From a virus: a stretch of 20,878 nucleotides of DNA. The stretch's first letter is position 1. Each line of letters begins with the position of its first letter. Positions 4,712 to 20,751 of this stretch are shown here, piece by piece. The DNA lies in IMG/VR virus record IMGVR_UViG_3300041964_000177, positions 1-20,878 of that record; one strand, given 5' to 3'. The notes beneath the pieces are model-generated. The model saw nothing but the letters and a program-made list of their open reading frames with translations, had not been told where the DNA came from and searched no databases. A program made the position numbers and the translations under genes.

Positions 4712-4712
4712 T

Positions 4713-4891
4713 TCACAGCTTCGTGAACGGGGCGCCAGCCGCGCAAAGCCAGCGCCCCGTTCTGTTTGTGAGCCCTTCGCGCATGGAGCGTGCGCCGGTG
4801 CTCGCGACCTTTCCGCACCTTGACCCCTATCGCTGGGTGCCGGGGAGGCGTGGTTCCCGTTGTCGGACGGGGCCGCTAACCGCCCTCTCAT
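4713..4891 (-). pseudogene. 59-residue gene, frameshifted copy
   Basis: Copy of 15144-15323 lacking one G (CTTCGTGAAC against CTTCGGTGAAC). Its frame therefore runs into the next gene rather than stopping. ATG at 4891 overlaps the portal stop. Confidence 0.4.
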
Positions 4892-6131
4892 GAGCTGGCA
4901 CCCATGTTCGTGGCAGCCGCGTTCGGCCGCATGTATTGGTCACCGCCGGGATCCGGTTGAGGCCCTCCCAGACCCGCGCATCGTTCGGTGACATGAAGCC
5001 CGCCTCTATGCCGGTTCGGTAAGCCGCGAAGCGTGCGGCAGGTCGCCGCGGAGCAACCCGGTCAGGTCGTGTTCCAGCACATATTGGCGCCGGCCTTCAT
5101 CGGTCAGGAGGGCGAGCTGTAGCTGTGCTTCGACGCGGCGGGCCCATGGTGCGAAGCAGTTCTGCACAAGCGCTCGGCTCTCTTCGGTCAGGCTCCATAG
5201 CTGGCATTTTTGCCCAGCCCGACGACAGAGAGCGGCACGCCGTAGATGCGGGCGATGTCCTCTAGTCCTAGGACCCGCGCCTCGTGGAACTGCGCTTCAC
5301 GCCCCGGCGTCCCCAGCGCATTGGCCTTCAGGCCGGCCTCGAGGAGCAGCGGGGCGACACCGGAGCGCATCCGGCCGACACGCTCGGACAGCTGCGCCTT
5401 CAAACGCTGGAACGCCGTGTCGGCAAGTTCACCTTGGAAGCTCGCGTCGGTCTCAAAGCTCAAGTCTGGAACAAAGCCGCGGTCGACCTGACCTTGCGCC
5501 AATTCGGATTGAGCCATGGCGAGACCCACGGCGCCGCCGGCCCAGGCCAAAGGTCCGACGCCAATCATCCCATCGCGTGAGGCGTATTTGAGATGGCAGA
5601 CTTCATCGGCAAGGTAGACCCGTGAGGCCCCGGAGCCGTCACTAACCTGATAGCGCAGGCGGCCGCTCTGGAGCCTCTCTGGAGCCACGGAGCGGGCCGG
5701 GAGGTAGTGTAGGGCGGAGACCTGCCCTCGGGCGTCATGAGCGATGTGAGCGTACGCATTGCCGGCCATGCATAAATCCCGAAGCAGCAGGTCCCTAAGC
5801 TCGAACGCGCTCATGCCGGGCGCCGCCACTTCATTGAGGATCCGCTGGATTGGGTGCCGCTCAACGAGTTCACGCCCGCCATCAGGAAGGCGTTTGTAAA
5901 TCGACAGCGCAAGGCGGCTAAGCCTTCAGAAATTAACGAGACGCACCTTGCCGCGACGGCCAGGGTGTTGACCGCAGCCTCGGGCGTCGTGAAGCCGCCG
6001 CCGGTCCGATAGGTGACCAGATTTCTGGCCCAGTTGTCGCCGTCGGAATAGGCCGCGGTCGGCCAATTCATGACGCCCAAGGGCGTAACCTCGCGGCGCT
6101 CAATTCCGAATAGACGCGCCAAGCGGCCCAC
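4888..6131 (-). pseudogene. Portal gene, frameshifted and allelically distinct copy
   Basis: Copy of the portal gene at 15320-16567 with four one-base deletions, near 4950, 5020, 5200 and 5905, that break the frame. Between roughly 5450 and 5960 it also carries dense substitutions. These keep the protein portal-like (ADEVCHLKYASRDGMIGVG here, ADEIAHLRYASKDGQIGIG in unit 2), which sequencing error would not do. It starts at 6131, two bases after the protease stop. Confidence 0.85.
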
Positions 6132-6133
6132 GT

Positions 6134-6673
6134 TCAGGCTCTCAGCGTGTCGAGAAACGCCAACTCCAGCGCAAAACGCCCGGCGCGATGGCCTTCAAGG
6201 TGACGCCGCGCCACCGTAGCGTCGACATAAGCCGGCTGGGGCGTGATGGCGATGTCGTGGAGGTCGAGGTCTATCAGCTCGCGTAAGTTCTCGCCGTCGA
6301 CCTTGCTCCAGCGCTCTTCCCTAACCCGAAAGGCGAAGCTTGCGCCGCTGACATCGCCCCTGCCGACCATTTCCAAAACGTCGCGACCGATTGCGGTTTT
6401 CGCTACGTCGAGCTGAAAATTTAAGCCCCTGCGGTCCTCTCTCAGTCGCAATGTGCCCGATTTCGTGCGGCCTAGGACGCCCTCAACGTTGTGGTTCCAG
6501 AGTGCCAAAACGTCGGGCTTGTCCAGTAAACAGCGGCGGAACGCCCCCGGCCGCACGGTTTCGTAAAAGCCGCCAAGGTCGGCGGACCGAACGTCAAAGA
6601 CGGCCGCGTAGCCGTCCAGCATGTTACCGAACGTGTGAAGCTCCGGACTTGCACGGCGCTCGATTTCGCTCAT
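6134..6673 (-). CDS. HK97-family prohead protease (unit 1)
   Basis: Identical to the product of 16570-17109, 179 residues. The start at 6673 forms an ATGA overlap with the upstream gene; the frame is open further upstream to 6799, but only as a shadow of that gene. Confidence 0.9.
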   Translation of the reverse strand: MSEIERRASPELHTFGNMLDGYAAVFDVRSADLGGFYETVRPGAFRRCLLDKPDVLALWNHNVEGVLGRTKSGTLRLREDRRGLNFQLDVAKTAIGRDVLEMVGRGDVSGASFAFRVREERWSKVDGENLRELIDLDLHDIAITPQPAYVDATVARRHLEGHRAGRFALELAFLDTLRA

Positions 6674-6996
6674 TGCGCACCGTCCCGGCGTGCGAGCTCG
6701 TCCTTGATGACCTGGTCCGCGGCCGGAGCCGACTTGGGCCGTTCGCCTGACAAGGCTTCTGCGAGCCGGATCCGGCGCAAGTAGTGCTGGCCGCTCCAAT
6801 CCTCGGGTATTTCGACCAGCTTAACCGGCTCGGGCTCTGCACTGACCACCTCGGCCGTTTCCGGCTTCTGGTCCGTCCAGCCTGCCGCGCGATAAGCCTT
6901 GGCGAGACGCTCGGGCAGGTCGTGAACCCCCGGCCCAAACGAGTGGTTGCCGTCGGTGACTTGGCGGAGGAGCGTGACCTTCACCATTTGGCTCAC
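6670..6996 (-). CDS. Small capsid-operon protein, 108 residues (unit 1)
   Basis: Identical to the product of 17106-17432. ATGA overlaps both with the capsid gene before it and with the protease gene after it. Confidence 0.75.
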   Translation of the reverse strand: MSQMVKVTLLRQVTDGNHSFGPGVHDLPERLAKAYRAAGWTDQKPETAEVVSAEPEPVKLVEIPEDWSGQHYLRRIRLAEALSGERPKSAPAADQVIKDELARRDGAQ

Positions 6997-8162: not shown

Positions 8163-8218
8163 GGAAGTGTCCTTCTAAGGGTCTGGGGCGCTTCACAGCG
8201 GCCGTTGGGTGGTGCGCT

Positions 8219-8875: not shown

Positions 8876-8894
8876 CCCATTCCACCTGAGCCTG

Positions 8895-8931
8895 CAATGT
8901 TCATTGTAGGATATCGTGAACGGAATAGCAA
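8895..8931 (-). promoter_or_regulatory. Virion-operon promoter with operator (unit 1)
   Basis: On the minus strand, TTGCTA (8926-8931), a 17-base spacer and TACAAT (8903-8908). The inverted repeat CAATG-TT-CATTG (8895-8906) covers the -10 box. Same as 19331-19367. Confidence 0.6.
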
Positions 8932-9034
8932 CCGCCGCAGCAGGTCAGAAAATTTAATCGGCTTCGCGCGCGATGTTGGGCCACAGCCGGCACGACATCT
9001 CCGGCGATTCCGATGACGAGGACGACGAGCCCCC

Positions 9035-10315: not shown

Positions 10316-10342
10316 CGGAACCGCTCCATTCTGATAGCTGGT

Positions 10343-10380: not shown

Positions 10381-10413
10381 TGATTCCGCGCCTATTTTCA
10401 AGTTTAGAGCCTG

Positions 10414-11232
10414 TTATTCTATCGCACTGCCCTCATGAATAAAGCAGCTACTTACAGTAAAGCTTTCCTTTACTTGGCATCGCTCATCGAGGCGCTTTTT
10501 AGGTTTCCACTCGCCCCATGGTGGTCGAAAATCACTCACCCCCCGCTCGCCGCGGCGCTCGGTGCTGCCATGGGTTGTGGTCCTGGCCGGCTCCCGCCCC
10601 CTCTTCTCAAGACCCTTGTTTTTCTGTTTGCCCGTGGGGTTTCTTTCCGTGCCCCCTATCCTCAACCAAGCACGCCAGGACGGGTCTATGACGCGCAGGA
10701 TGTTGGTCAGGTGCTTCCTGCCGGGGCGTGGCCGCATCTCTATGGACAGCAGGCCCATACGACCGGCGAGGCGCACGGCACGTCTTGCCAGCGTCCTGCA
10801 GCATCCGGCACGGGCGGCGAGCTCGTCATAGGAGCGGTCACAGCCGCCATGACTACGCACCTCGTCGGCGACCACCTTCAGCACGGCCAGCTCGCCCTGC
10901 GTGAACTTTGCGGCCAAGGTCGGCGGCAACCCCCCTGCCGCTGCAAGGTGTCGGCGCCGTTCCATGCTGCGGCGTCTGTCCGGGGACTGTTGAACACGCC
11001 GCGGCGGAAACCGGCTGGGGCCGCTCCACAAGGGCTTTTGAGTTCCGGCGGCGGGTAGCACCACCCCACCTCTCAAAGCCGCTCTGCGGGCCTCCAGCGC
11101 GGCGGAAAGCGCCTCCGTATCAGCATCGGGTAGAACCCCTCCCGCGTAAGCTTTCCAAAGCTCTCTTGCGAGCGAGTCGCAACTGGCCAAGCTGGCGCGG
11201 CCAATAGCTTCGGTGATTTGATTGGCAAACAT
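10414..11232 (-). CDS. Winged helix-turn-helix protein, RepC-position replication/control gene
   Basis: Intact 272-residue copy, reading across the unit junction. Residues 1-55 are helical (MFANQITEAIGRASLAS, LARELWKAY). Residues 56-100 are Arg/Pro-rich. Residues about 104-190 look like a winged helix: LPPTLAAKFTQGELAVLKVVADEV, a recognition region YDELAARAGCCRTLARRAVR (about 135-154), and a wing with RPGRKHLTNILRV. Residues after 190 are low-complexity and basic. I recall similar winged-helix proteins on plasmids of Methylobacterium and Bradyrhizobium relatives, with unknown function. Its place after parA and an RHH gene, behind a candidate antisense RNA, is the place of repC in repABC plasmids. 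It may therefore be a second initiator or a copy-control regulator; that role is inferred. A possible SD-masking hairpin (11236-11268) lies just before the start at 11232. The long tail could be shortened in reality if a frameshift remains. Confidence 0.65.
   Translation of the reverse strand: MFANQITEAIGRASLASCDSLARELWKAYAGGVLPDADTEALSAALEARRAALRGGVVLPAAGTQKPLWSGPSRFPPRRVQQSPDRRRSMERRRHLAAAGGLPPTLAAKFTQGELAVLKVVADEVRSHGGCDRSYDELAARAGCCRTLARRAVRLAGRMGLLSIEMRPRPGRKHLTNILRVIDPSWRAWLRIGGTERNPTGKQKNKGLEKRGREPARTTTHGSTERRGERGVSDFRPPWGEWKPKKRLDERCQVKESFTVSSCFIHEGSAIE
10456..10474. repeat. Inverted repeat in the 3' part of the HTH/Rep-like gene
   Basis: AGTAAAG-CTTTC-CTTTACT, a perfect 7-base stem around a HindIII-like centre. 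It lies within the last 20 codons of the gene and is damaged in unit 1. No T tract follows, so it is not an obvious terminator; it could be a protein-binding site. Confidence 0.3.
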
Positions 11233-11235
11233 TTC

Positions 11236-11268: not shown

Positions 11269-11273
11269 CCGTT

Positions 11274-11535: not shown

Positions 11536-11772
11536 CTACTCCGGCGGGAACTGCTCGGCCAGAACGGCGCGGAGCACGTCGGACATCGGCTTGCCCTGCT
11601 TCACGCAGTAAATCTTCATCCGCGAATGCAGCTCTCCGTCCACGTCGAGTGTGAACCTGACCATCCGCTTCGCCGGTGCCGCCGGAGAGGGGCTCATGTC
11701 CTTGCCGCTCTCGATCCACGCATCGGCATTCGCCGGGGGTGTTGGTCGCTTGAACGCGACGGTCTTTTTCAT
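11536..11772 (-). CDS. Ribbon-helix-helix partition/repressor protein, ParG-like
   Basis: A 78-residue protein whose start overlaps the parA stop as ATGA. The first 33 residues are Pro/Ala/Ser-rich and probably flexible. Residues 35-44 ([10 protein letters not shown]) form the DNA-binding strand, followed by helices [16 protein letters not shown] and [13 protein letters not shown] mobile N-tail plus a C-terminal RHH fold, next to a small parA, is the layout of ParG-type centromere-binding proteins. These load ParF on the plasmid and repress their own operon. Likely binding sites are the TACGG octads at 12442-12558. A plain CopG-type repressor is the main alternative. Confidence 0.8.
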
Positions 11773-12416
11773 GCTGCCGCTCTCCGCTGATTTTGTAGGA
11801 GGGTTATGGCGAGGCCAAGCGACCGCACCTCACGGGATGCTTCGCTGTTTGGATCGACCTCAAGGACGGTGAGTCCCTGCGCTGCGGACTCCGCAAATAT
11901 GACCCGCTGCGACAATGGCGTGGGAAGCACAGAAAAGGCGGAGCCGGCGAAGGCTTCCGCAACATCGCGCCCAATTGCCGTATTTACGACCCTGCGGTTT
12001 ACCGTAAACACGGCTCGGATGTTGTCTTTGAACTGCTGAGCTTCCTTCACAAGCTGGACAGTCTGATCCGCTGCCCATACGTCGAACGGCGAGGGCGTGA
12101 TCGGGATGATGACTAGGTCGCTGGCCAGGATGGCGCTGCGGCCAAGGTCGTTGACCCGTGGTGCCCCGTCGATCAGCGTCACAGCATAATCGGCAGCTAC
12201 GGACGGGAGGTCTCGGTGCAGCGTCGGCGTTGCCATGCCAATAACCGGAAAGAGCGGTGCAGCTTCCCGTGCCGATGACCACGACATAGCACTTGCTTGA
12301 GGATCGGCATCGACAACGAGGGTGCGGAAGCCCTCTCGGGCGAAGTAGGCGGCCAGATTAAGGGTCACTGTCGTTTTACCGACGCCGCCCTTCTGGTTCA
12401 GCAATCCAATAATCAT
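11769..12416 (-). CDS. parA: ParA-family partition ATPase, small ParF type
   Basis: A 215-residue protein. It has the deviant Walker A motif at residues 9-16 (KGGVGKTT with signature Lys9), the A' motif VVDADPQ at 34-40, and Walker B VTLIDGAP around 79-86. It lacks an N-terminal HTH domain, as in type Ib systems, where a separate RHH protein is the repressor. ParA ATPases of this kind move plasmid copies over the nucleoid so that both daughter cells inherit one, and parA on this element says it is maintained as a replicon. No strong SD precedes ATG at 12416. A weak minus-strand promoter (TTGTTA at 12483-12478, GTATCG at 12460-12455, 17 bases apart) overlaps the octad repeats, which would allow autoregulation. 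Confidence 0.93.
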
Positions 12417-12597: not shown

Positions 12598-13074
12598 TTG
12601 GCTACTACACTGCTGGACAGCATTTTATCTGCCCATCTAAGTCCGAACGAGTGGTTCGATTATTTTGGTACTCTTACAGCTAAAGAATTTGAAAATACTC
12701 TCGATGAAGTAGTAGCATCAAAGAAATTTCATTCTAATTTATATGTAGGTTTCGCCAGAAAGCTCCACGAATATGGGAATTTCCAAGAAGGTCTATCCGA
12801 AGAATATCGTTTGGCACTTATTTTGGAAGCCGAAGTAATTATGAAGGTTGTGATCGCGAACATTAATGAAGAGCATAGACAAGATATTATAACAGAATGG
12901 GCCGCGTCACAGGATTATGCGGAACGGTTCGGCTATAGAAGCGGGTCTCTTTATGGGACCTTAGAGCCCCGTCACGTATTCAAGAATGAAGTGCCCGATT
13001 TAACCAATCATTCAAATTGTATTCAGATGCACCCCTCCCCTGTGCGATCCCTGGTGGGGAGGAGATTGAGATGA
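12598..13074 (+). CDS. AT-rich accessory gene, 158 residues, unknown function
   Basis: I do not recognise the family. The product is soluble, mostly helical and acidic in its first two thirds (LLDSILSAHLSPNEWFDYF, EFENTLDEVVASKKF, EEYRLALILEAEVIMKVV), with no membrane segment. Codon use is plainly AT-rich (GAATTTGAAAATACTCTC, CATTCTAATTTATATG), unlike every neighbour, which points to recent acquisition. The last 20 residues return to high GC and may be a read-on into older sequence. TTG at 12598 follows GAGAGG; no in-frame ATG is available upstream. It is translationally coupled to a membrane peptide gene. In satellites, such a foreign-looking gene beside the replication block is often an anti-phage, superinfection or maintenance gene. 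That is a guess here. Confidence 0.75.
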   Translation: MATTLLDSILSAHLSPNEWFDYFGTLTAKEFENTLDEVVASKKFHSNLYVGFARKLHEYGNFQEGLSEEYRLALILEAEVIMKVVIANINEEHRQDIITEWAASQDYAERFGYRSGSLYGTLEPRHVFKNEVPDLTNHSNCIQMHPSPVRSLVGRRLR

Positions 13075-13241
13075 GTGAAGCCCAGGAATCTCGGCCCTAC
13101 CTGCACCGACTCTCCGACGCAACGTGGCATTTATCTCTGACAATTCTCGTCGCCGCTTTGGCCATCTTGGCGTGCGCGGCTGTCGGGGGTTTTTGGTGGC
13201 TATTCTTCTGGGGGATTGGTCATCTATTCGGTGCGTGGTGA
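13071..13241 (+). CDS. Single-helix membrane peptide, 56 residues
   Basis: Starts at ATG 13071 with a strong SD (GGGGAGGAG) and an ATGA overlap with the gene before. Residues 1-20 are polar (MSEAQESRPYLHRLSDATWH). Residues 21-54 are hydrophobic and aromatic (LSLTILVAALAILAC, then GGFWWLFFWGIGHLF), enough for one helix or a tight hairpin. The Trp/Phe-rich end resembles small phage membrane effectors and toxin-like peptides in composition only. Coupling to the 158-residue gene suggests a two-component cargo, for example sensor plus membrane effector; this is inferred. Confidence 0.7.
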   Translation: MSEAQESRPYLHRLSDATWHLSLTILVAALAILACAAVGGFWWLFFWGIGHLFGAW

Positions 13242-13251
13242 CGTTGCATGG

Positions 13252-13392
13252 CTAGGCTAGAAGGTCCGCCATCTTCCATATCGCAAGTGCCCAGATAGCT
13301 ATCGTAAAGAACCCCACGCCAGAGAAGACCAGGATAGTTTCTGCGGCGCTTTCATAATTTCTGCGATTTTCCACAATCCGAGGAACTCGCAT
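13252..13392 (-). CDS. Small membrane peptide, 46 residues
   Basis: ATG at 13392 follows AAAGGAGAGGTT, one of the best ribosome sites in the window. The peptide has a charged N-terminus (MRVPRIVENRR), a single membrane helix (residues about 20-39), and KMADLLA at the end. It converges on the 56-residue membrane gene with a 10-base gap, so the two messages could overlap at their 3' ends. Function unknown. Unit 1 has the same frame with one residue changed, which supports coding. Confidence 0.6.
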   Translation of the reverse strand: MRVPRIVENRRNYESAAETILVFSGVGFFTIAIWALAIWKMADLLA

Positions 13393-13504
13393 AACCTCTC
13401 CTTTGCCGACTCATCGCCTTGTAAGCCGGTAAAGTTAACTTCGGCTCCTTGTCGCATCCAAGCGGATTTTTGTCGTGGCCTGTAACTGGCTCGCCGTGTC
13501 AGGG

Positions 13505-13550
13505 GGGTCTGAGCCTAACTCCCTGAGCGCGGGGGCTCCTATTGAGGTCA
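13505..13550. repeat. Interspersed repeat A
   Basis: GGGTCTGAGCCTAACTCCC...GAGCGCGGG...CTCCTATTGAGGTCAC, with a small GC hairpin in its centre. Partner B is at 14337-14385. Read on the minus strand, both carry CAATAGGAG followed by the hairpin. The shared outer blocks CCTAACTCC and CTCCTATTGAGG are conserved while the hairpin differs. Confidence 0.75.
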
Positions 13551-13587
13551 CCGCAAGGCTGGAACCTCGCGCACCAACAGTCATTTG

Positions 13588-13706
13588 CCTGTGTCCCTGC
13601 CGCGCCCCCGAAGCGATATTCGGCAGGACAGGCCGCGCTCGATAAACCTTGAACGAGCAATGTGAGCCACTGGCCGCCCGGTGTAACGCTTGGCGGCCTT
13701 TTCTTT
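13588..13706 (+). ncRNA. Structured RNA / leader with intrinsic terminator
   Basis: Three hairpins in a row. The first is a 12-pair stem (CCTGT plus CCTGCCG against CGGCAGG plus ACAGG, with a 3-base bulge), whose arms enclose CCGAA-GCGATA-TTCGG. The second is GCTCG-N12-CGAGC. The third is a clear intrinsic terminator, GGCCGCC (13672-13678) with GGCGGCC (13692-13698), followed by TTTTCTTT. No gene ends just before it on this strand. It is either an independent small RNA or a leader with an attenuator for the 71-residue gene, whose ATG comes 22 bases after the T tract. I see no convincing promoter upstream and match no known riboswitch. Confidence 0.5.
13672..13706 (+). terminator. Intrinsic terminator
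   Basis: Seven-pair all-GC stem GGCCGCC / GGCGGCC, 13-base loop, then TTTTCTTT. It is the best terminator in the window and is identical in unit 1 at 3239-3273. Confidence 0.8.
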
Positions 13707-13727
13707 GCCCATGGTAGGCTGCGACGA

Positions 13728-13943
13728 ATGACTGAACCCCGCCGCTTCCCGCCGCCCTGGTCCGTCCAGCGCACTGTAGGCGACCACTTCAAGGTTCAGG
13801 ACGCGAACGGGCTAGATTTGGCTTGGGTTTACGTGAAGGCGGCCGGGGCTGGCGTGGCCGGGCTCACGGAAGACGAGGCACGAAGGATCGCGGCAAATAT
13901 CGCTAGGCTGCCGGAGCTGCTGAAGCGCCAGGATGCAGGATGA
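13728..13943 (+). CDS. Small Bradyrhizobium-type conserved protein, 71 residues
   Basis: MTEPRRFPPPWSVQRT opens the protein, then a strand-rich middle (DHFKVQDANGLDLAWVYVK), and a helical end LTEDEARRIAANIARLPELLKR. I recall this start-and-end pattern from many copies of an uncharacterised small protein in Bradyrhizobium and related genomes, hence its use as a host clue; the function is unknown. It is soluble, with no catalytic motif. It follows the intrinsic terminator closely and is coupled by ATGA to the next gene. The cassette it forms with that gene is flanked by repeats A and B. Confidence 0.8.
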   Translation: MTEPRRFPPPWSVQRTVGDHFKVQDANGLDLAWVYVKAAGAGVAGLTEDEARRIAANIARLPELLKRQDAG

Positions 13944-14161
13944 CGCTGTTCCACGTCACACGCTATGACAAGGACGGCAGGGTGACGACCGCCGTTGTTC
14001 CCGTCGAGGCTGAATCGAAATCAGCAGCGGCCGAAAAGGTCTGCGGCTTCGCTGTCGCCAGCGACGTGAAACCCGGTCGCGCTACGGCCAGTGTCCTCGC
14101 ATTGGGTGAGCCCGCGGGTGATCGGGAATACTTCCGCCGCGCCAGTGAGGGAAAGGGTTAG
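13940..14161 (+). CDS. Small hypothetical protein, 73 residues
   Basis: MTLFHVTRYDKDGRVTTAVVPVEAESKSAAAEKVCGF looks like a small beta-alpha unit: two strands, then an Ala/Glu/Lys helix. The C-terminal half is GDREYFRRASEGKG. No family is recognised. Such small proteins that present an XXVTRYDXXG strand followed by an EAESKSAAAEKV helix are common in Rhizobiales, but I cannot name a function. The start overlaps the previous stop as ATGA, so the pair is co-translated. Confidence 0.7.
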   Translation: MTLFHVTRYDKDGRVTTAVVPVEAESKSAAAEKVCGFAVASDVKPGRATASVLALGEPAGDREYFRRASEGKG

Positions 14162-14472
14162 CGCCGCGTGCCACGATGCAAGCGCGGATTCGCATAACGT
14201 GCAGTCTGGAACGCGATTTTAAGTTCTCAGATAGCATTCCTGGCCGAGTTCCGCATGTGGAACAGACAAGGCTAGAACAGGCCCAGCAAACCCCGACGAA
14301 AGCGCCCCATGAGGCATGCCGCGAATACTTTAACTTGGGTCTGGGGCCTAACTCCTCCCCAAGCGCGGGACTCCTATTGAGGCGACGCTGAGCAAGCCGA
14401 GCCGCTAGGTTGACTCGACCGCTGCCACTCGCGTGAATGCAGGGGCTGGGGACATCCTAAGGAGCTGCCCAG
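14162..14472. other. Gene-poor stretch holding repeat B
   Basis: A 311-base gap between the 73- and 107-residue genes. It contains repeat B (14337-14385) and an open plus frame at 14176-14391 that is broken by one base in unit 1 and shows no protein-like features. Nothing else is supported. Confidence 0.5.
14337..14385. repeat. Interspersed repeat B
   Basis: GGGTCTGGGGCCTAACTCC, TCCCCAAGCGCGGGA, CTCCTATTGAGGCGAC. Same orientation as repeat A, about 830 bases downstream. The segment between the two carries the structured RNA and the 71/73-residue pair. Confidence 0.75.
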
Positions 14473-14796
14473 GTGAAGCTATGGATTTTCATCGGGGTGC
14501 TGATCGTCGCCGGAGTATTCTACGCAAGAAGCGACCTCAACAAACCACCACCTGTTGTTCGAACTGACATGCCCTTTCCGGAAGAGCAGCGCCGCGCGGC
14601 AACAGAAGCCATCCAAGCGGCGGGGTTTAATTGTCCAGAGGCTAAGCTCGCCTATGCGAGAGGGCAGGATCCCATCGGCAACGTTACTCGCATTCATTGC
14701 GGGCCCGAAGGAGGCGATAGTGTTTATGAAAAAGCGGTGTTTCGCCTGACCTTTCGGCCAAATGGAACCTACGTTGTGGGGCCTTGGGAAGACTAG
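14473..14796 (+). CDS. Membrane-anchored extracytoplasmic protein, 107 residues
   Basis: GTG start at 14473, 9 bases after AAGGAG. Residues 3-17 (LWIFIGVLIVAGVFY) form a signal anchor with no clear signal-peptidase site. The rest (RSDLNKPPPVVRTDMPF onward) would lie outside the cytoplasm. Two cysteines (54 and 76) in the GFNCPEAK and IHCGPEGG segments could form a disulfide, and the C-terminal FRLTFRPNGTYVVGPW looks like a beta hairpin. No family is recognised. It is the last plus-strand gene and converges on the virion operon. A host-surface change such as superinfection exclusion would suit a phage satellite, but is only a suggestion. Confidence 0.75.
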   Translation: MKLWIFIGVLIVAGVFYARSDLNKPPPVVRTDMPFPEEQRRAATEAIQAAGFNCPEAKLAYARGQDPIGNVTRIHCGPEGGDSVYEKAVFRLTFRPNGTYVVGPWED

Positions 14797-14852
14797 ACGG
14801 GGCTGCTGGTCATCAGGTCACCTCAGGAATTCAAAACGCTCAGCGAGAAGTT

Positions 14853-14898
14853 TGAGTGACCCGCCGGTGGAAACCCCTTCGAAGCCTGACTCAAAAAT
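14853..14898. terminator. Weak inverted repeat between convergent genes
   Basis: TTTGAGT pairs with ACTCAAA about 30 bases later, between the end of the plus-strand 107-residue gene and the end of the minus-strand virion operon. The right arm is followed by AA and not by a T tract, so its role as a terminator is doubtful. Confidence 0.25.
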
Positions 14899-14905
14899 CG
14901 CATTG

Positions 14906-15142
14906 CTAGGCGTGTCCAGCCGCACCGGCGCTCAGAACGTCGATTTCGGCGACGCGCTTGATGCAACGGGTGAGGAACCGCTCCGCATTCCGAAGCTGCT
15001 CATCTTCCGTCATTGCCGGATACTCGGCGCAGACCATGGCCGCATAGTTCTTCGTCATGGCCATGAGGACAGATGGCCGGTTCTCCGGGTGCAGCGGGCA
15101 GACCAGCATCGCCACGGCATCGAAGATTTCGTCGGGTGTCAT
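14906..15142 (-). CDS. Last gene of the virion operon, 78 residues
   Basis: MTPDEIFDAVAMLVCPLHPENRPSVLMAM is followed by helices NYAAMVCAEYPAMTEDEQLRNAERFLTRC and VAEIDVLSAG. It is all-helical, soluble and slightly acidic, with three cysteines and no motif I can name. A small helical protein after the portal might be a head-tail connector, a scaffold-size factor, or a factor that redirects a helper phage. None of these can be chosen from sequence. ATG at 15142 lies one base after the stop of the 59-residue frame. A longer opening upstream to 15250 (VRKGREHRRTL) overlaps that frame and is less likely. Confidence 0.6.
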   Translation of the reverse strand: MTPDEIFDAVAMLVCPLHPENRPSVLMAMTKNYAAMVCAEYPAMTEDEQLRNAERFLTRCIKRVAEIDVLSAGAAGHA

Positions 15143-15143
15143 T

Positions 15144-15323
15144 TCACAGCTTCGGTGAACGGGGCGCCAGCCGCGCAAAGCCAGCGCCCCGTTCTGTTTG
15201 TGAGCCCTTCGCGCATGGAGCGTGCGCCGGTGCTCGCGACCTTTCCGCACCTTGACCCCTATCGCTGGGTGCCGGGGAGGCGTGGTTCCCGTTGTCGGAC
15301 GGGGCCGCTAACCGCCCTCTCAT
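15144..15323 (-). CDS. 59-residue basic, disordered protein (tentative)
   Basis: Opens at ATG 15323, overlapping the portal stop as ATGA. It ends one base before the next start, so it fills the gap exactly. The product is rich in Ala, Arg, Pro and Ser (MRGRLAAPSDNGNHASPAPS, RLAPRSPKL) and predicted to be unstructured. I recognise no family, and the composition alone could come from non-coding GC-rich DNA. The tight spacing is the main support. Confidence 0.4.
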   Translation of the reverse strand: MRGRLAAPSDNGNHASPAPSDRGQGAERSRAPAHAPCAKGSQTERGAGFARLAPRSPKL

Positions 15324-16567
15324 GAGCTGGCACCCATGTTCGTGGCAGCCGCGTTCGGCCGCATGTATTGGTCACCGCCGGGGATCCGGTTGAGGCCCTC
15401 CCAGACCCGCGCATCGTTCGGTGACATGAAGCCCGCCTCGATGCCGGTTCGGTAAGCCGCGAAGCGTGCGGCCAGGTCGCCGCGGAGCAACCCGGTCAGG
15501 TCGTGTTCCAGCACATATTGGCGCCGGCCTTCATCGGTCAGGAGGGCGAGCTGTAGCTGTGCTTCGACGCGGCGGGCCCATGGTGCGAAGCAGTTCTGCA
15601 CAAGCGCTCGGCTCTCTTCGGTCAGGCTCCCATAGCTGGCATTTTTGCCCAGCCCGACGACAGAGAGCGGCACGCCGTAGATGCGGGCGATGTCCTCTAG
15701 TCCTAGGACCCGCGCTTCGTGGAACTGCGCTTCACGCCCCGGCGTCCCCAGCGCATTGGCCTTCAGGCCGGCCTCGAGGAGCAGCGGGGCGACACCGGAG
15801 CGCATCCGGCCGACACGCTCGGACAGCTGCGCCTTCAAACGCTGGAACGCCGTGTCGGCAAGTTCACCTTGGAAGGCCGCGTCGGTTTCAAAGCTCAAGT
15901 CTGGAACAAAGCCGCGGTCGACCTGACCTTGCGCCAATTCGGATTGCGCCATGGCCAGGCCTACGGCACCTCCAGCCCATGCCAGCGGGCCAATGCCGAT
16001 CTGCCCGTCTTTGGATGCGTAACGTAGATGCGCGATTTCGTCGGCCAGGTAGACCCGTGAGGCCCCGGAGCCATCACTGACCTGATAGCGCAGGCGACCG
16101 CTCTGGAGCCTCTCAGGAGCCACGGAGCGGGCCGGGAGGTAGTGCAGGGCGGCGACCTGCCCACGGGCGTCATGGGCGATGCAGGCATAGGCATTGCCCG
16201 ACGTGCATAGGTCTCGAAGTAGCAGGTCACGAAGCTCGAAGCCCGACATGCCGGGCGCGGCCACTTCATTGAGGATCCGCTGAATCGGATGTCTCTCAAC
16301 CAGTTCACGCCCGCCGTCAGGAAGGCGTTTGTAAATCGACAACGGCAAGGCGGCGAGGCCCTCGCTAATCAAGCTGACGCACCGTGCCGCGACGGCCAGG
16401 GTGTTGACCGCTGCCTCGGGCGTCGTGAAGCCGCCGCCGGTCCGATAGGTGACCAGATTTCTGGCCCAGTTGTCGCCGTCGGAATAGGCCGCGGTCGGCC
16501 AATTCATGACGCCCAAGGGCGTAACCTCGCGGCGCTCAATTCCGAATAGACGCGCCAAGCGGCCCAC
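15320..16567 (-). CDS. HK97-family portal protein
   Basis: A 415-residue protein, normal length for HK97 gp3-type portals, which form the twelve-fold ring at one capsid vertex through which DNA enters and leaves. Typical segments are TTPEAAVNTLAVAARCVSLIS with ALPLSIYKR (residues about 48-80), HPIQRILNEVAAPGMSGFELR, GNAYACIAHDARGQVAALHYLP, and the C-terminal pair YGSLTEESRALVQNCFAPW and GFMSPNDARVWEGLNRIPGGD. It starts two bases after the protease stop. Order in the operon is capsid, protease, portal, the reverse of the usual portal, protease, capsid. A functional portal implies that DNA is packaged, yet no large terminase gene is present. Confidence 0.95.
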   Translation of the reverse strand: MGRLARLFGIERREVTPLGVMNWPTAAYSDGDNWARNLVTYRTGGGFTTPEAAVNTLAVAARCVSLISEGLAALPLSIYKRLPDGGRELVERHPIQRILNEVAAPGMSGFELRDLLLRDLCTSGNAYACIAHDARGQVAALHYLPARSVAPERLQSGRLRYQVSDGSGASRVYLADEIAHLRYASKDGQIGIGPLAWAGGAVGLAMAQSELAQGQVDRGFVPDLSFETDAAFQGELADTAFQRLKAQLSERVGRMRSGVAPLLLEAGLKANALGTPGREAQFHEARVLGLEDIARIYGVPLSVVGLGKNASYGSLTEESRALVQNCFAPWARRVEAQLQLALLTDEGRRQYVLEHDLTGLLRGDLAARFAAYRTGIEAGFMSPNDARVWEGLNRIPGGDQYMRPNAAATNMGASS

Positions 16568-16569
16568 GT

Positions 16570-17109
16570 TCAGGCTCTCAGCGTGTCGAGAAACGCCAAC
16601 TCCAGCGCAAAACGCCCGGCGCGATGGCCTTCAAGGTGACGCCGCGCCACCGTAGCGTCGACATAAGCCGGCTGGGGCGTGATGGCGATGTCGTGGAGGT
16701 CGAGGTCTATCAGCTCGCGTAAGTTCTCGCCGTCGACCTTGCTCCAGCGCTCTTCCCTAACCCGAAAGGCGAAGCTTGCGCCGCTGACATCGCCCCTGCC
16801 GACCATTTCCAAAACGTCGCGACCGATTGCGGTTTTCGCTACGTCGAGCTGAAAATTTAAGCCCCTGCGGTCCTCTCTCAGTCGCAATGTGCCCGATTTC
16901 GTGCGGCCTAGGACGCCCTCAACGTTGTGGTTCCAGAGTGCCAAAACGTCGGGCTTGTCCAGTAAACAGCGGCGGAACGCCCCCGGCCGCACGGTTTCGT
17001 AAAAGCCGCCAAGGTCGGCGGACCGAACGTCAAAGACGGCCGCGTAGCCGTCCAGCATGTTACCGAACGTGTGAAGCTCCGGACTTGCACGGCGCTCGAT
17101 TTCGCTCAT
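16570..17109 (-). CDS. HK97-family prohead maturation protease
   Basis: A 179-residue protein. These proteases act inside the prohead, cutting the capsid delta domain and then themselves. The fold is shown by GYAAVFDVRSADLGGFYETVRPGAF (residues 21-45), the likely catalytic His61 in ALWNHN, the likely catalytic Ser112 in DVSGASFAF, and the conserved strand DLHDIAITPQPAYVDATV near 138-154. Length is normal for the family. ATG at 17109 overlaps the stop of the preceding gene as ATGA. It sits between the 108-residue gene and the portal gene, in the same transcript as its capsid substrate. Confidence 0.93.
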   Translation of the reverse strand: MSEIERRASPELHTFGNMLDGYAAVFDVRSADLGGFYETVRPGAFRRCLLDKPDVLALWNHNVEGVLGRTKSGTLRLREDRRGLNFQLDVAKTAIGRDVLEMVGRGDVSGASFAFRVREERWSKVDGENLRELIDLDLHDIAITPQPAYVDATVARRHLEGHRAGRFALELAFLDTLRA

Positions 17110-17432
17110 TGCGCACCGTCCCGGCGTGCGAGCTCGTCCTTGATGACCTGGTCCGCGGCCGGAGCCGACTTGGGCCGTTCGCCTGACAAGGCTTCTGCGA
17201 GCCGGATCCGGCGCAAGTAGTGCTGGCCGCTCCAATCCTCGGGTATTTCGACCAGCTTAACCGGCTCGGGCTCTGCACTGACCACCTCGGCCGTTTCCGG
17301 CTTCTGGTCCGTCCAGCCTGCCGCGCGATAAGCCTTGGCGAGACGCTCGGGCAGGTCGTGAACCCCCGGCCCAAACGAGTGGTTGCCGTCGGTGACTTGG
17401 CGGAGGAGCGTGACCTTCACCATTTGGCTCAC
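17106..17432 (-). CDS. Small capsid-operon protein, 108 residues
   Basis: Residues 1-40 (MSQMVKVTLLRQV, GNHSFGPGVHDLPERLAKAYRAAGW) match the general pattern of short phage proteins next to capsid genes: a strand, then XFXPGXXXDLPEXXAXXXXXAGW. The Pro/Glu/Val-rich middle is probably flexible, and the end is helical. The function of that type is mostly unknown; head decoration or completion is possible. The gene has ATGA overlaps on both sides (with capsid and protease), so it is firmly part of the virion transcript. Met4 is an alternative start. Confidence 0.75.
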   Translation of the reverse strand: MSQMVKVTLLRQVTDGNHSFGPGVHDLPERLAKAYRAAGWTDQKPETAEVVSAEPEPVKLVEIPEDWSGQHYLRRIRLAEALSGERPKSAPAADQVIKDELARRDGAQ

Positions 17433-18598
17433 GCCGTAATCGCGCCGAAGGTGCCGTAGATCAGCCCTGTCGGCATCCGGATTGCCAAGGCGATGCGTTC
17501 TTCACAACGCACCATGAGCAAGTTTCTGGCGAAGAAATCGGAGTGCTCAGAACTTATTTGGACCTCGCTCTGGAGCCTGTCGTAAAGAGTCACAGCACTC
17601 TGGAAATCGCCAACCAAGAATGACCCTGCAGCAATAGCCGGTGTTGCTACAACCGGGACACCCCACAGCCTCGGCTGGTCGACGTTTCCGAACGGGCCTT
17701 GGCTGATATATCTGCCATCAGCGTCCTTCATCTCAACCATGCGAGAAAAGTCTGCGAGGTTTAGGACGATAGCGGAGGCCGCCAGGCCAATGTCGGCAAG
17801 CTGCGCAATGGCGTGGTGGATGACATCAACGCGCTTGTCGCCGGCCTGATTTCTGGCCACGTCATATCCGCTCGCGACGCCAATCATGCCCTGAAGATTC
17901 GGGGCCGTGCCATTGCCGCTTAAGAGCTGGATCTCTTCGACCAGGCCAAGGCCGAGACGAAGCTGGCCGTCAATGAACGCACGGAGCTGGTCGAGGTCGT
18001 CAAGGGATTGGCGCGAGACCGGCAGGAGGTGGGCTATCACGCGGGCTGGAGCCGTATAGGTCGACAGCGTCATGTCAGACTCGGGCTTCAACGCGCCCTC
18101 AGCGACCGTCGCGGCATTGTTCACGAAAGCCGACTGCCTGATGTATTCGACTGTGCTTGAGGTCGTGCGGGCCTGCGGGAGAATGTCGCGAACGGTGAGA
18201 CGTCGTTGCGGCAGAGCAATAATGCCGGGGCGCCTGTCCGCGGCAACCACGCTTCCCAAGCTGGTCAAGGCGCGCAACTCGAAGCGTGTAGAACCGCGTG
18301 CACCACCCTCGACGAAGCTCCGGATTTCCGGTGCCGCGATGGCTTGCTCGCCCCAAGTCTTCGGCTGCTCGTTGCCGTTCGCCAGTATCGGCACGGCGGT
18401 GGCACGGCGCTCCAAATCGGCAACCGTCTCGGCCTGACCAATCGTGTTTTCGAGGCTCAGGGCCTCGGCCTTGAACGAGTCGAAATGGCCCTGCTCGGTC
18501 TCGTTCAGGCTGCGGTTTTCCGTGCCGGCGCGGTCAAGCAAAGCCCTCATTTTGGCGACGAGTACGCCGCGTTTTTCTCTGAGGTCGGCGAGTTTCAT
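17429..18598 (-). CDS. HK97-fold major capsid protein
   Basis: A 389-residue protein. Residues 1 to about 70 are a charged coiled-coil delta domain (LADLREKRGVLVAKMRALLDRAG, LNETEQGHFDSFKAEALSLENTI) that serves as built-in scaffold and would be removed by the protease encoded downstream; cleavage probably falls near residues 95-110. The fold is marked by VRDILPQARTTSSTVEYIRQ, AATVAEGALKPESDMTL, the spine helix region around LDDLDQLRAFIDGQLRLGLGLVEE with LLSGNGTAPNLQG, and the C-terminal LWGVPVVATPAI, FARNLLMVRCEERIALAI. It is preceded by AGAAGGA and a 56-base gap from the HTH gene. It is the first structural gene of the operon. Confidence 0.96.
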   Translation of the reverse strand: MKLADLREKRGVLVAKMRALLDRAGTENRSLNETEQGHFDSFKAEALSLENTIGQAETVADLERRATAVPILANGNEQPKTWGEQAIAAPEIRSFVEGGARGSTRFELRALTSLGSVVAADRRPGIIALPQRRLTVRDILPQARTTSSTVEYIRQSAFVNNAATVAEGALKPESDMTLSTYTAPARVIAHLLPVSRQSLDDLDQLRAFIDGQLRLGLGLVEEIQLLSGNGTAPNLQGMIGVASGYDVARNQAGDKRVDVIHHAIAQLADIGLAASAIVLNLADFSRMVEMKDADGRYISQGPFGNVDQPRLWGVPVVATPAIAAGSFLVGDFQSAVTLYDRLQSEVQISSEHSDFFARNLLMVRCEERIALAIRMPTGLIYGTFGAITA

Positions 18599-18654
18599 GG
18601 AAGTGTCCTTCTAAGGGTCTGGGGCGCTTCACAGCGGCCGTTGGGTGGTGCGCT

Positions 18655-19311
18655 TTATGCGAGCGCTGACTGTCGGGTTCGAGGCTTCAGTCGGCTGATA
18701 ATTCCCTGCGCTCTGATGGAAAGGGCTTCGCCCATGGCGAATGCCTGAAACGCGAGGTTCAAGAGGCTGTCGTCGTCGGACTCCGACGCATCCTGTTCTG
18801 CTTGGTCGGGCAAGCTCGCCTGCCCCGCTTCTGGCAGGTCTTTCAGCGACCGAAGAACCGCAGCAGCATCCACGGTGACCAGCAGCGGCGGCCGGTCCAG
18901 ACGACCGGGGCGCAGCATGGCCTCGAATTCAGCGCCGCTTTGTCCGGGAAGCCGGTTAGCGACAACCCCGCTCCAGTCGCCCGCACTGTCGCGCCAAGCG
19001 CAAATCAACGTCTCGCCTTCCGCGAATAGGCCAGAGGGCGCCCGTTGCCCGTGAACGCCGTTATAGGCGAAGCGCCCCGCGAGCGGCGCTGCGACCGCGA
19101 GCGGGACCGCGTCCGCCAGCATCGCGATAGCGGCGATGTGAACGGCACGGGAGCGCGTGATTAGCATGGCGACACCGGCCTTGGGAGCGCGCTGGTCGCC
19201 TCGTTCGCCTGCCGGGATAAGCCCGGTGTTCAGCCAACCACGAATGGTGCCGAGCCGCTTGTCGAAGCGGTCAGGGTCGATTGCTCGTGCGACGTCTGAA
19301 AGCCGATACAT
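18655..19311 (-). CDS. MerR-like HTH protein heading the virion operon; possible small-terminase analogue
   Basis: A 218-residue protein. Residues 1-35 (MYRLSDVARAIDP, TIRGWLNTGLIPAGE) form a MerR/gpNu1-like winged helix start. Residues 45-80 are hydrophobic Ala-rich helices. Residues 95-150 are strand-rich (GLFAEGETLICAWRDSAGDW, LLVTVDAAAVLRSL). An acidic linker follows (residues 170-181, AEQDASESDDDS), then a helical end LLNLAFQAFAMGEALSI. A DNA-binding head, acidic linker and C-terminal interaction segment, placed where a small terminase gene normally sits, would suit a packaging-recognition protein that docks onto a helper's large terminase. A transcription regulator of the operon is equally open. 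SD AGGTGG lies before ATG at 19311. Confidence 0.7.
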   Translation of the reverse strand: MYRLSDVARAIDPDRFDKRLGTIRGWLNTGLIPAGERGDQRAPKAGVAMLITRSRAVHIAAIAMLADAVPLAVAAPLAGRFAYNGVHGQRAPSGLFAEGETLICAWRDSAGDWSGVVANRLPGQSGAEFEAMLRPGRLDRPPLLVTVDAAAVLRSLKDLPEAGQASLPDQAEQDASESDDDSLLNLAFQAFAMGEALSIRAQGIISRLKPRTRQSALA

Positions 19312-19330
19312 CCCATTCCACCTGAGCCTG

Positions 19331-19367
19331 CAATGTTCATTGTAGGATATCGTGAACGGAATAGCAA
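19331..19367 (-). promoter_or_regulatory. Virion-operon promoter with overlapping operator
   Basis: On the minus strand: -35 TTGCTA (19367-19362), exactly 17 bases, -10 TACAAT (19344-19339), and a start point expected near 19332, about 20 bases before the first codon. The perfect inverted repeat CAATG-TT-CATTG (19331-19342) covers the -10 box and start point, so a bound protein would block transcription. Candidates are the operon's own MerR-like product or the excisionase-like HTH protein. Confidence 0.6.
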
Positions 19368-19470
19368 CCGCCGCAGCAGGTCAGAAAATTTAATCGGCTT
19401 CGCGCGCGATGTTGGGCCACAGCCGGCACGACATCTCCGGCGATTCCGATGACGAGGACGACGAGCCCCC

Positions 19471-20181
19471 TTAGGAATTAATCGTTTCTCGGAAAGCTGC
19501 GAGCCGGGCGTCTGCTCTCGCTATTTCCTCAGGAGTAGGGCCTTTGTGGTCCTGCAGTTGGTAGTTAGGGGCATTGAGAATTGAGGGCTTCTCAACCTCT
19601 TCTTCTTCCATGCCCGCCTGCTTCTTTAGATTGGTGTTTTGATAAGTATTTATATGCTTCCCGGACGGGCGGGAAACTGGTGTCGCGGACGTATGGGAAA
19701 CTCTCTCCCGGACGTGCGGGAAATTGAGCGGGTATCGAGCGGCCAATTCCTCCCAGTTTCCCGGACGGTCGCGGAACTGCCAATTTGCGGGCATGGCGAG
19801 GGTGATTATCAATGGTCCGGAAAAGACCTTCCGCGTGATGATGAAGCCCCTCTTGCGAATGGCAGGAACAGCCTCTTCGACCGCCCTGGTCGTCAGGCCA
19901 CCTGCGCCCGCATAGGCGGGGTATCCGGCAAACGCGGTCCCGAAATATGGCTTGTCCGGCTCCGTGTTGATGAACTCGGCGATGACTTGGGCCACCAGCT
20001 TTTCATTCGCCGTGGGCGCGATTTCTCGTCGGAAGTCCCGAGCCCATTGAAAGCGGTCGGCGTCGGGCGCTAGAGCCACCGCCGGTACTTGTTCGATCTT
20101 CCCCGGCACCCCGCGTGTGAATTTAACAAGCCCGGCAGGTTTCCCTTTCGGTCTTGAACCGCCCGGCGGCTTATCGCTCAC
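19471..20181 (-). CDS. Lambda O-like replication initiator
   Basis: A 236-residue protein, counted from the second of two tandem GTG codons because that one overlaps the preceding stop as GTGA. Residues 44-130 form a winged-helix region (FQWARDFRREIAPTANEKLVAQVIAEFI, LTTRAVEEAVPAIRKRGFIITRK, LIITLAMP). Residues 135-190 are a linker, encoded by the iterons and AT-rich tract. The acidic C-terminal end (MEEEEVEKPS, TPEEIARADARLAAFRE) could contact a helicase loader. In lambda, O protein binds iterons within its own gene through an N-terminal winged helix and recruits the helicase through its C-terminus. The same order is seen here. No helicase or loader gene is present, so host or helper proteins would be needed. 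The alternative is a plain DNA-binding regulator. Confidence 0.7.
   Translation of the reverse strand: MSDKPPGGSRPKGKPAGLVKFTRGVPGKIEQVPAVALAPDADRFQWARDFRREIAPTANEKLVAQVIAEFINTEPDKPYFGTAFAGYPAYAGAGGLTTRAVEEAVPAIRKRGFIITRKVFSGPLIITLAMPANWQFRDRPGNWEELAARYPLNFPHVRERVSHTSATPVSRPSGKHINTYQNTNLKKQAGMEEEEVEKPSILNAPNYQLQDHKGPTPEEIARADARLAAFRETINS
19625..19778. other. Candidate replication origin: four iterons plus AT-rich tract inside the initiator gene
   Basis: Four 19-base elements lie at 19660-19678 (CCCGGACGGGCGGGAAACT), 19684-19702, 19707-19725 and 19760-19778, the first three at 23-24 base spacing. The three best are interrupted palindromes of the form TCCCG-N6-CGGGA with GGAC fixed. Directly beside the first is an AT-rich tract (19625-19658, with GATAAGTATTTATATG) suited to strand opening. 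Number of iterons, their length, interrupted-palindrome form, placement in the middle of the initiator gene and the AT-rich block on the 3' side all match the plan of the lambda origin, though the bases do not. Confidence 0.7.
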
Positions 20182-20306
20182 CACGGGAGTGGTACCGTTG
20201 CCGGATCCGATCCGGGCGTGTAGTCTCCTAGTGCTTCCTGAAGATTACCCAGGCCGTCCCGATTAGCCCTCGGGGCGGCTTCTTCGTCTGGCGGCCTCAC
20301 TCTCAT
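20178..20306 (-). CDS. 42-residue peptide of the early operon
   Basis: MRVRPPDEEAAPRANRDGLG, then NLQEALGDYTPGSDPATVPLPW. The start overlaps the previous stop as ATGA and the stop overlaps the initiator start as GTGA, so it fills the 118-base gap exactly and links four genes into one coupled series. It is acidic and probably unfolded; the function is unknown. It may serve mainly to carry ribosomes to the initiator start, which has no SD of its own. Confidence 0.5.
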   Translation of the reverse strand: MRVRPPDEEAAPRANRDGLGNLQEALGDYTPGSDPATVPLPW

Positions 20307-20548
20307 GCACCACCCCCGTCCAGCGCCGCCACGCGCTCCAGGAAGGCGGGTTCCGCATCCGCCCGCAGGAATGCGAGCAGTTGGTGCCGAGCCGCTGCAG
20401 CCTCGAAATATGCGTCGGGGCTGCCCCGTGCGCAGATATCATCCCGCATGTAGGCGTCGGCCAGGTGCTCGCCCTGCTTGCGCGCCCATTCGACCATTGC
20501 TGGGGTGAAGCCGGCGGTCATGCGGCTGGGTTCTTGGTTCTTGCTCAT
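20303..20548 (-). CDS. 81-residue early-operon protein
   Basis: Helical protein: FTPAMVEWARKQGEHLADAYMRDDI, then SPDAYFEAAAARHQLLAFLRADAEPAFLERVAAL. I do not recognise a family. The repeated helix with small and aromatic residues suggests a compact helical bundle or dimer. ATG at 20548 overlaps the HTH stop as ATGA; Met10 is an alternative start. Lying between an excisionase-like gene and the initiator, it may act in control of replication or induction. Confidence 0.65.
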   Translation of the reverse strand: MSKNQEPSRMTAGFTPAMVEWARKQGEHLADAYMRDDICARGSPDAYFEAAAARHQLLAFLRADAEPAFLERVAALDGGGA

Positions 20549-20751
20549 CCCCCCGCGTGAGTCTCCGCAAGGAAAAAGGCCCGCAATTTTCCGGACTCAG
20601 CTGCCCATCGGCCGCCGACTTTGCGTGCAGGAAGCTTCCCGCTCTCGAGCAGGCGAAAGGCGAGACGAGGCTTGATGCCGATAGCTTCAGCAATTCGAGC
20701 CGCGCCCCAAAGAAGGGCAAAATCATCATCTTTCTGAGGGGTGTGTGACAC
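20545..20751 (-). CDS. Excisionase/AlpA-like HTH protein
   Basis: A 68-residue protein. LLWGAARIAEAIGIKPRLAFRLLESGKLPARKVGGRW (residues 13-49) is the classic winged-helix pattern of excisionase and AlpA-type proteins: a scaffold helix, a recognition helix with RLAFRLLESG, and a KVGGRW wing. In satellites such proteins often switch on early functions or excision. No integrase is present, so here a regulator of the replication operon it heads is more likely. It is the first gene of the coupled early operon, and the inverted repeats at 20779-20816 are possible targets. Confidence 0.8.
   Translation of the reverse strand: MSHTPQKDDDFALLWGAARIAEAIGIKPRLAFRLLESGKLPARKVGGRWAAESGKLRAFFLAETHAGG

Follow-up and report, generated by a model that had tools for sequence, protein, structure and literature searches.

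Capsid-forming phage-inducible chromosomal islands (cf-PICIs) are integrated and bear terminases, and to our knowledge those described, which bring their own heads, also carry a terminase of their own. The standard order of head genes is portal-protease-capsid, and phage-plasmids with a ParA protein are common. We have analyzed a virus record of 20,878 bp from IMG/VR (IMGVR_UViG_3300041964_000177), the whole of which is called the window here. It carries genes for an HK97-type capsid, a maturation protease and a portal on a plasmid-like circle of about 10.4 kb, in which we found no large terminase (TerL). On balance, its gene content and its relatives favour a satellite plasmid that forms capsids, lives in an alphaproteobacterium (probably one of the Hyphomicrobiales) and borrows the packaging motor as well as the tail.

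The element shares with the cf-PICIs the possession of its own head genes, the lack of tail genes and the small size, but it is a plasmid, with neither an integrase nor a TerL found. The first-pass annotation of this DNA had held that capsid-forming satellites are integrated islands only. That view is outdated, as extrachromosomal capsid-forming satellite plasmids (cf-PISP) with their own terminases and the conserved cf-PICI gene order were described for Vibrio in April 2026 (PMC13230959). One of these, TG54, is likewise a circle with parA and repA, has capsid, portal and protease genes and, in that account, no tail, and helper tails have been proposed for it. It differs in its size of 15.8 kb, its HNH gene, terminases, adaptor and closure genes, its conserved cf-PICI order and its restriction to Vibrio (PMC13230959), whereas the element in the window measures about 10.4 kb, is probably alphaproteobacterial, has the order capsid-protease-portal and yielded no terminase. 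The Vibrio PISP TG93, an 11.1-kb plasmid with capsid and protease and without integrase, is similar as well, but its capsid is of the capsid protein E family, it has a small terminase, and a portal is not mentioned in the accessible text (PMC13230959). A cf-PISP-like plasmid also occurs outside Vibrio: Roseomonas mucosa pTT14-8 (L008, CP099479.1) is a circular alphaproteobacterial plasmid (16.9 kb) with portal, protease and capsid and no annotated tail, but with TerL and the standard portal-protease-capsid order. Alphaproteobacterial elements collected in this study (among L123-L174 and L244-L330) have the module order of the window, sizes of about 10-11 kb where bounded and in some cases no TerL; they differ in that many have an integrase, no ParA match was obtained and most of those with enough sequence carry TerL. 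Helper-embedded PICIs (HE-PICI) are satellites within the late genes of their helper, just as two of our loci (L251 and L246) lie within clusters of gene transfer agents (GTAs), but their helpers are prophages (PMC10111431) and the element in the window is itself a plasmid. Systems of another kind, which we set aside, are the Charybdis elements (PMC12324425), Mulch and Flayer of Streptomyces (PMC10690885) and satellite phage-plasmids of glacial origin (PMC4490671).

Because its lineage, gene order and lack of a terminase differ, we do not file the element as a cf-PISP; it probably works like one. Capsid-forming satellite plasmids as such are already known, and what is new is the lineage, the gene order and the recurrent absence of TerL. 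A literature search without most subscription papers or bioRxiv preprints returned no paper on such elements in Alphaproteobacteria and none on satellites inside GTA clusters.

The tandem unit and its genes

The window consists of two head-to-tail copies of a unit of about 10,434 bp (approximately 1-10446 and 10447-20878). The direct repeats that span it have a spacing of 10,430-10,446, with 10,431-10,436 as the commonest exact spacings. The interval 4888-20751 delimited by the first-pass annotation therefore amounts to about 1.5 turns, the real unit being the whole repeat; its HK97-type capsid, protease and portal on a 10.4-kb circle are borne out by the Pfam matches and the tandem repeat. 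Alignment of the copies over 10,494 columns gave 96.3% identity. The 393 differing columns cluster in Rep (about 1-1000), ParA (about 1500-2000) and the portal (about 5440-5980), and there are none at about 6,000-10,000, which leaves some 4 kb across the capsid and initiator genes identical. The contig most likely walks twice round one circle via two natural variants. Between the copies, the nonsynonymous and synonymous divergence (dN and dS) are 0.032 and 0.195 for the portal and 0.011 and 0.198 for ParA; as these differences are mostly synonymous, both genes appear to be under selection rather than decaying. The figures for Rep (0.096 and 0.133) are distorted by misaligned indels. The frames of portal and ParA are broken by single-base indels in copy 1, and both are intact in copy 2.

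The features are as follows (window coordinates, with match values in brackets; aa, amino acids; HTH, helix-turn-helix; RHH, ribbon-helix-helix; ORF, open reading frame).

17429..18598, minus strand: HK97-fold major capsid protein, 389 aa (PF05065 8e-46; phrog_10 1e-68); identical in copy 1 at 6993-8162
17106..17432, minus strand: 108-aa head-operon protein, no significant family match; copy 1 at 6670-6996
16570..17109, minus strand: prohead protease (S78), 179 aa (PF04586 7e-42); copy 1 at 6134-6673
15320..16567, minus strand: portal, 415 aa (PF04860 4e-76); copy 1 at about 4888-6131, frameshifted
18655..19311, minus strand: protein X, 218 aa, with a possible N-terminal HTH, directly upstream of the capsid gene; copy 1 at 8219-8875
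19471..20184, minus strand: protein Y, 237 aa, probable replication initiator with internal origin; no family match, internal iterons; copy 1 at 9035-9748
19658..19779, no strand: probable origin within the Y gene, made up of four iterons of about 22 nt with dyad symmetry
20545..20751, minus strand: HTH/excisionase-like protein, 68 aa (PF12728 0.002 and phrog_1840 0.004, both weak); copy 1 at 10109-10315
10414..11232, minus strand: plasmid Rep, 272 aa (phrog_15967 2e-62; O-like families weakly)
11536..11772, minus strand: RHH/ParG-like partner of ParA, 78 aa (PF09274 ParG 2e-4); 4-bp overlap with parA
11769..12416, minus strand: parA, ParA-family partition ATPase, 215 aa (phrog_164 2.6e-46, AAA_31 2e-23); copy 1 interrupted by indels
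12598..15250: small cargo ORFs, on the plus strand of 158, 74, 93, 73 and 107 aa and on the minus strand of 114 aa; only weak scores to families with a stated function

Along the circle, the order on the minus strand is ParA, the RHH/ParG-like protein, Rep, the HTH protein, an 81-aa protein, Y, X, capsid, 108-aa protein, protease and portal; the small plus-strand ORFs occupy 12598-14796. The element thus combines its own capsid, portal and maturation protease with an extrachromosomal circle and its maintenance genes (ParA, RHH and Rep in a tandem unit). The capsid and 108-aa genes, and likewise the 108-aa and protease genes, overlap by 4 bp, which suggests that the three are translationally coupled. 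The protease was taken to start at the ATG that overlaps with the 108-aa gene; a TTG at 17235, which would give a longer form, is a less likely start. A His and a Ser are invariant in the protease alignment, and we take them to be the catalytic residues.

The predicted pairing of parA with an RHH partner was upheld by the matches to phrog_164, AAA_31 and the ParG family. The proposed lambda O-like initiator with an internal origin fared only in part as well: four iterons indeed lie inside the Y gene, but Y has no family match in Pfam or PHROGs and 'O-like' describes its anatomy only. The initiator genes of the related elements L170, L130 and L173 also hold internal repeats, which in L173 come only in pairs; exact 9-mers that occur three times turned up in the gene of L170 and in neither L130 nor L173. 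An Rfam search found nothing. The Rep family was matched in 72 plasmid records, 42 of them from Methylobacterium and none at 60% identity or more. On plasmids of Hyphomicrobiales, members adjoin ParA-type genes: one from Methylocystis has an AAA ATPase and an RHH protein alongside, one from Methylosinus a ParA. A Bradyrhizobium plasmid gave a match to the cargo ORF of 93 aa (5e-5). The replication genes therefore point to an alphaproteobacterial host, probably of the Hyphomicrobiales. A Rep of the same family (34% identity) is encoded by plasmid pAU40rrn of Aureimonas sp. AU40 (L005).

The absence of a large terminase, tail, holin/lysin, integrase and relaxase noted at first reading was supported by our scans. 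Among the 156 ORFs of the window, 49 were scanned jointly against PHROGs and 20 singly, in overlapping sets; the others are mostly copy-1 duplicates or shadow ORFs. A TerL hidden in a frameshifted region, which the first-pass annotation had allowed for, was sought in six frames with a hidden Markov model (HMM) built from 143 and then 196 TerLs, and over the whole record with PF03237 and PF03354. None was found in the window, while the Pfam search detected L170, L253 and L156 as positive controls. The 49 ORFs gave no match to a terminase, tail or lysis family, and the lone tail-family match of the 20 was a chance-level one of Rep to phrog_24 (E 0.38). No integrase family was matched in the scanned ORFs, the 68-aa HTH protein giving weak excisionase matches (about 0.004), and no relaxase family was found among 20 proteins scanned with Pfam. 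Neither an HNH protein nor a small terminase was matched in the scanned ORFs with Pfam or PHROGs. The window thus lacks the terminases and HNH endonuclease of a cf-PISP, as well as its gene order; the scanned ORFs show no sign of the integrase-based chromosomal life of a cf-PICI; and the packaging, tail and lysis genes of a phage-plasmid were not found. Nor did the scanned ORFs show the tail genes of a GTA structural cluster, and the portals of its relatives reach no more than 25-30% identity with that of the GTA.

The family of capsid-protease-portal elements and its recurrent lack of TerL

Of 397 genomes from the order to which Microvirga sp. 3-52 belongs, 190 gave matches to the window portal, with a distinct top group of nine at 38-44% identity. 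In eight of these nine the protease gene lies directly upstream of the portal gene, and tblastn detected TerL in five of the eight neighbourhoods (L123, L124, L126-L128). A scan of IMG/VR with a portal alignment gave 76 loci, 41 of which (L134-L174) have at least 36% identity, and further loci were added by a survey of 298 genomes of one family (loci in 9) and by a protease scan (best 80 matches listed). All three head genes lie on one strand in 125 loci: 98 have the order capsid-protease-portal, 24 the standard order and three neither, two of the latter being circular records cut inside the module. This ratio reflects the search and not a natural frequency, since most loci were found with the family's own portal and protease, and loci without matches to all three head queries were dropped first, which removed most standard-order phages. 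The window follows the capsid-protease-portal order, and its portal falls in this clade, with at most 43% identity to the earlier set.

The module order of the family, preceded by TerL where this is present, is unusual, and many of its elements bear an integrase. The genes of L124 are, in order, primase, helicase, TerL, an ORF of 278 aa, capsid, protease, portal and tyrosine integrase. In L123, L124 and L130 an integrase-family gene adjoins a tRNA gene. Attachment repeats of 51 bp bound 11,005 bp in L124, and repeats of 25 bp bound 10,210 bp in L123. The repeat of L130 (10,095 bp) measures 18 bp, no more than the maximum among 180 random controls, and was accepted because of its position in a tRNA gene and the junction of L173. 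No attachment repeats were found for L125, L126, L128 and L129, nor for L246 at 12 bp or more, and the one of L127 (16 bp) is below the 18-bp control maximum. Circles measure about 10,434 bp in the window, 10,657 bp in L170, 10,040 bp in L173 and 9,833 bp in L328 (9,960 minus an end repeat of 127 bp). The window thus has the size of 10-11 kb usual in the family, to which L251 (about 12.3 kb) is an exception.

Besides the head module and TerL, L170 contains a Rep of the window's family (36%), an iteron-bearing initiator-like gene and HNH-type genes; it has a 127-bp end repeat and no integrase match. L316 resembles it in gene content, with an order that suggests a circle, and no end repeat was found in it. 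The TerL-free circle L173 holds a Rep initiator, an integrase and the head module. The sequence across its junction matches the two ends of L130, an integrated element that likewise lacks TerL, and therefore a TerL-free type excises. By inspection, two ORFs of L173 (L173:2071-4030) resemble the AAA-ATPase and partner of a defence cassette. No ParA match was obtained at 1e-4 in two sets of 76 and 91 loci, circular members included. In the ORFs of L124, L127, L130, L170 and L173, which were scanned in part, we saw no convincing tail gene save an 810-aa tape-measure protein in L130 (L130:3686-6118; PF06791 3e-16), the sole tail gene seen in this element, which might fix or perturb the tail length of a helper.

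TerL was scored in the 48 family-order loci that have at least 5.5 kb upstream of the capsid gene or are circular, the window being left out. A scripted count gave 40 loci with TerL and eight without (L328, L173, L249, L277, L278, L306, L129 and L130), which was corrected to 39 and nine because the TerL at L251 belongs to the adjacent GTA. In the other 52 family loci the upstream sequence is too short to call an absence, and 30 still have TerL. In contrast, 23 of the 24 standard-order loci carry it. A PHROG scan of 74 ORFs from the TerL-free candidates covered the 25 commonest of 89 families, and as a single terminase could escape it, PF03237 and PF03354 were used; by these L328 is a second TerL-free circular record. 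Mapped on a portal tree (49 rows), the lack of TerL requires six changes, at least five of them forced by well-supported branches (with L251 unlabelled); L277 and L328 form long branches of unsure placement. Thus, relatives with the terminase-free gene set, which the first-pass annotation had proposed to look for, do exist and include the circular L173 and L328, and the deleted remnant without relatives that it had envisaged is not what we see. As the absence recurs and two circles show it, the element in the window cannot be explained as an artefact of frameshifts or as an isolated phage with a deletion.

The capsid and protein X are less regular. The window capsid has mainly its N-terminal 70-97 residues or so in common with the family capsids, so that it may have arisen by recombination. 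When viral contigs were scanned with single window proteins, no relative was found for capsid and Rep, and one distant locus for the protease. A capsid scan, of which the best 80 loci were listed, gave 38-48% identity, but as the loci with TerL and portal seen there had the order TerL-portal-capsid, the capsid was rejected as family marker; an alignment of nine capsids was dropped as a query, being too diverse. All ten relatives inspected have ORFs of 166-265 aa in or near the place of X. Where they were aligned with X, the identity is no higher than 13-24%, which does not establish homology, and the predicted fold of X is of low confidence (mean pLDDT 52.6). Since X adjoins the capsid gene and may contain an HTH, we considered it as a candidate small terminase; ORFs in its place occur in TerL-bearing members too.

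The closest relative and gene transfer agents

The window formed a long lone branch in an earlier portal tree without L251. The closest relative found is this locus (genome G934), with a portal 61% identical to that of the window and a tree pairing of 100/100. It has a protease, a homologue of the 108-aa protein between protease and portal (42% local, 35% overall identity) and a capsid similar to that of the window at the N-terminus only. Among 397 genomes of the family of G934, only G1146 and perhaps G1097 look closer to the window/L251 branch than to the rest; the former has a partial portal and no capsid or protease match, the latter a fragment with a stop. Portal fragments in two further genomes, at L343:9115-9603 and L342:9229-11669, are 84% and 69% identical to the best family query (L251/window branch), one of them with a stop codon.

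Genome G243 contains a cluster with Terminase_6, capsid, connector, DUF2460 and Gp84_N/BR0599, families that we take to be linked to GTAs. Compared with G243, L251 is an insertion of about 12.3 kb (L251:3963-16293) that runs from the 3' end of the GTA portal gene to the next GTA gene and carries a large serine recombinase; it sits downstream of the GTA TerL and has no TerL of its own. L246 (L246:2017-12955, genome G988, about 10.9 kb), which brings a TerL of its own and a tyrosine integrase, lies between TerL and portal of a GTA, and in L174 (L174:1634-3803) a satellite portal and a tyrosine integrase are followed by a GTA portal. Such embedding was seen in three of the 105 loci or stretches examined, most of which lack flanks, and in two of about 14 whole-genome loci with flanks. 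These three loci are possibly the GTA counterpart of helper-embedded PICIs. G243, the host of the TerL-free L130, has a single PF03237 match, which lies in the GTA cluster far away from L130, and no PF03354 match. The frame of a GTA-type portal of this genome (L331:10047-11408) is apparently split by an in-frame stop.

A head without a recognizable motor

We propose that, between infections, the element would persist as a low-copy plasmid kept by ParA/RHH and Rep, as their homologies suggest. Once a helper is active, Y could amplify the plasmid from its internal iterons, and the head operon, to judge from homology, would build a small prohead of the HK97 type, for which it supplies protease and portal. 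The large terminase of the helper would then fill this prohead, and helper tails and lysis would complete and release a chimeric particle. Candidate donors of the terminase are a co-resident tailed phage, a TerL-bearing sibling satellite and the GTA of the host. The size of about 10 kb of most family members with known ends would fit a fixed small head. The reading as a satellite is supported by the intact head genes and by a portal under purifying selection between the variants.

The original interpretation is supported in part. That the element is of the plasmid type and belongs to a family of small elements coding for heads stands firm; packaging, transfer, the helper and the loan of a motor we infer from gene content and relatives, and this is one of several points that weigh against the satellite reading. 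A foreign TerL would have to dock on the window portal, for which there is no known precedent, and the plasmid form with ParA is known from the window alone. The status of L277, L278 and L306 depends on IMG/VR contig ends that may be trimmed, which makes their lack of TerL weaker than that of the circles. L342 and L343, near the branch of the window, look decayed, and L129 may be. L251, at about 12.3 kb, is outside the size range of the family, within which L246 falls. Finally, the search for a motor relied on PF03237 and PF03354, on a PHROG scan of selected ORFs and on one custom HMM; a motor of a novel kind among the small cargo ORFs (the largest of 158 aa) is unlikely.

The same observations bear on other explanations. 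That no motor was found would also follow if the head proteins were weapons or decoys that spoil helper assembly and protect the host while the plasmid stays unpackaged, and a Vibrio PISP has been proposed to disrupt heads with its capsid and protease (PMC13230959). We consider this unlikely, as the portal is retained under purifying selection and the TerL-free L130, L173, L328 and window stay at about 10 kb despite the missing gene of about 1.6 kb. Rather unlikely, too, is a decaying remnant, that is, a plasmid satellite of the L170 kind that is disappearing after the loss of its TerL. The TerL-bearing L170 does share its Rep family, L342 and L343 show what decay looks like nearby, and the portal and ParA frames of copy 1 are broken; but these breaks are single-base indels next to an intact copy 2 with synonymous-biased differences, and the TerL-free state is found on several branches, with two circles among them. 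That the copies are variants, and the contig hence a composite, might suggest a misassembly of a plasmid with an unrelated prophage fragment. Both copies share the gene order, however, and L170 and L316 independently unite the same Rep family with the head module, so that such an artefact is very improbable. An ordinary phage-plasmid with terminase and tail genes elsewhere on the true molecule is equally hard to credit: ParA-bearing phage-plasmids are common (PMC4490671), but the unit repeats on itself at about 10.43 kb, and its nearest family is small, with no tail set in the members scanned.

A more specific version of the satellite reading concerns the source of the motor. The place of L251 near a GTA TerL hints at it, although the loci are few. 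Because the TerL-free L251 lies inside a GTA cluster, and the L246/L174 lineage likewise, though L246 has a TerL, the branch of the window might parasitize the GTAs of its host, providing small heads and portals of its own and taking the large terminase and tails from the GTA; we regard this as a rather doubtful but concrete option.

The cf-PISP satellites carry their own terminase (PMC13230959). A motorless head module on a plasmid, in a family in which this absence recurs, would mean either that a terminase loads foreign proheads or that the heads serve a purpose other than packaging. If the motor should indeed come from the gene transfer agents, these would have parasites of their own.

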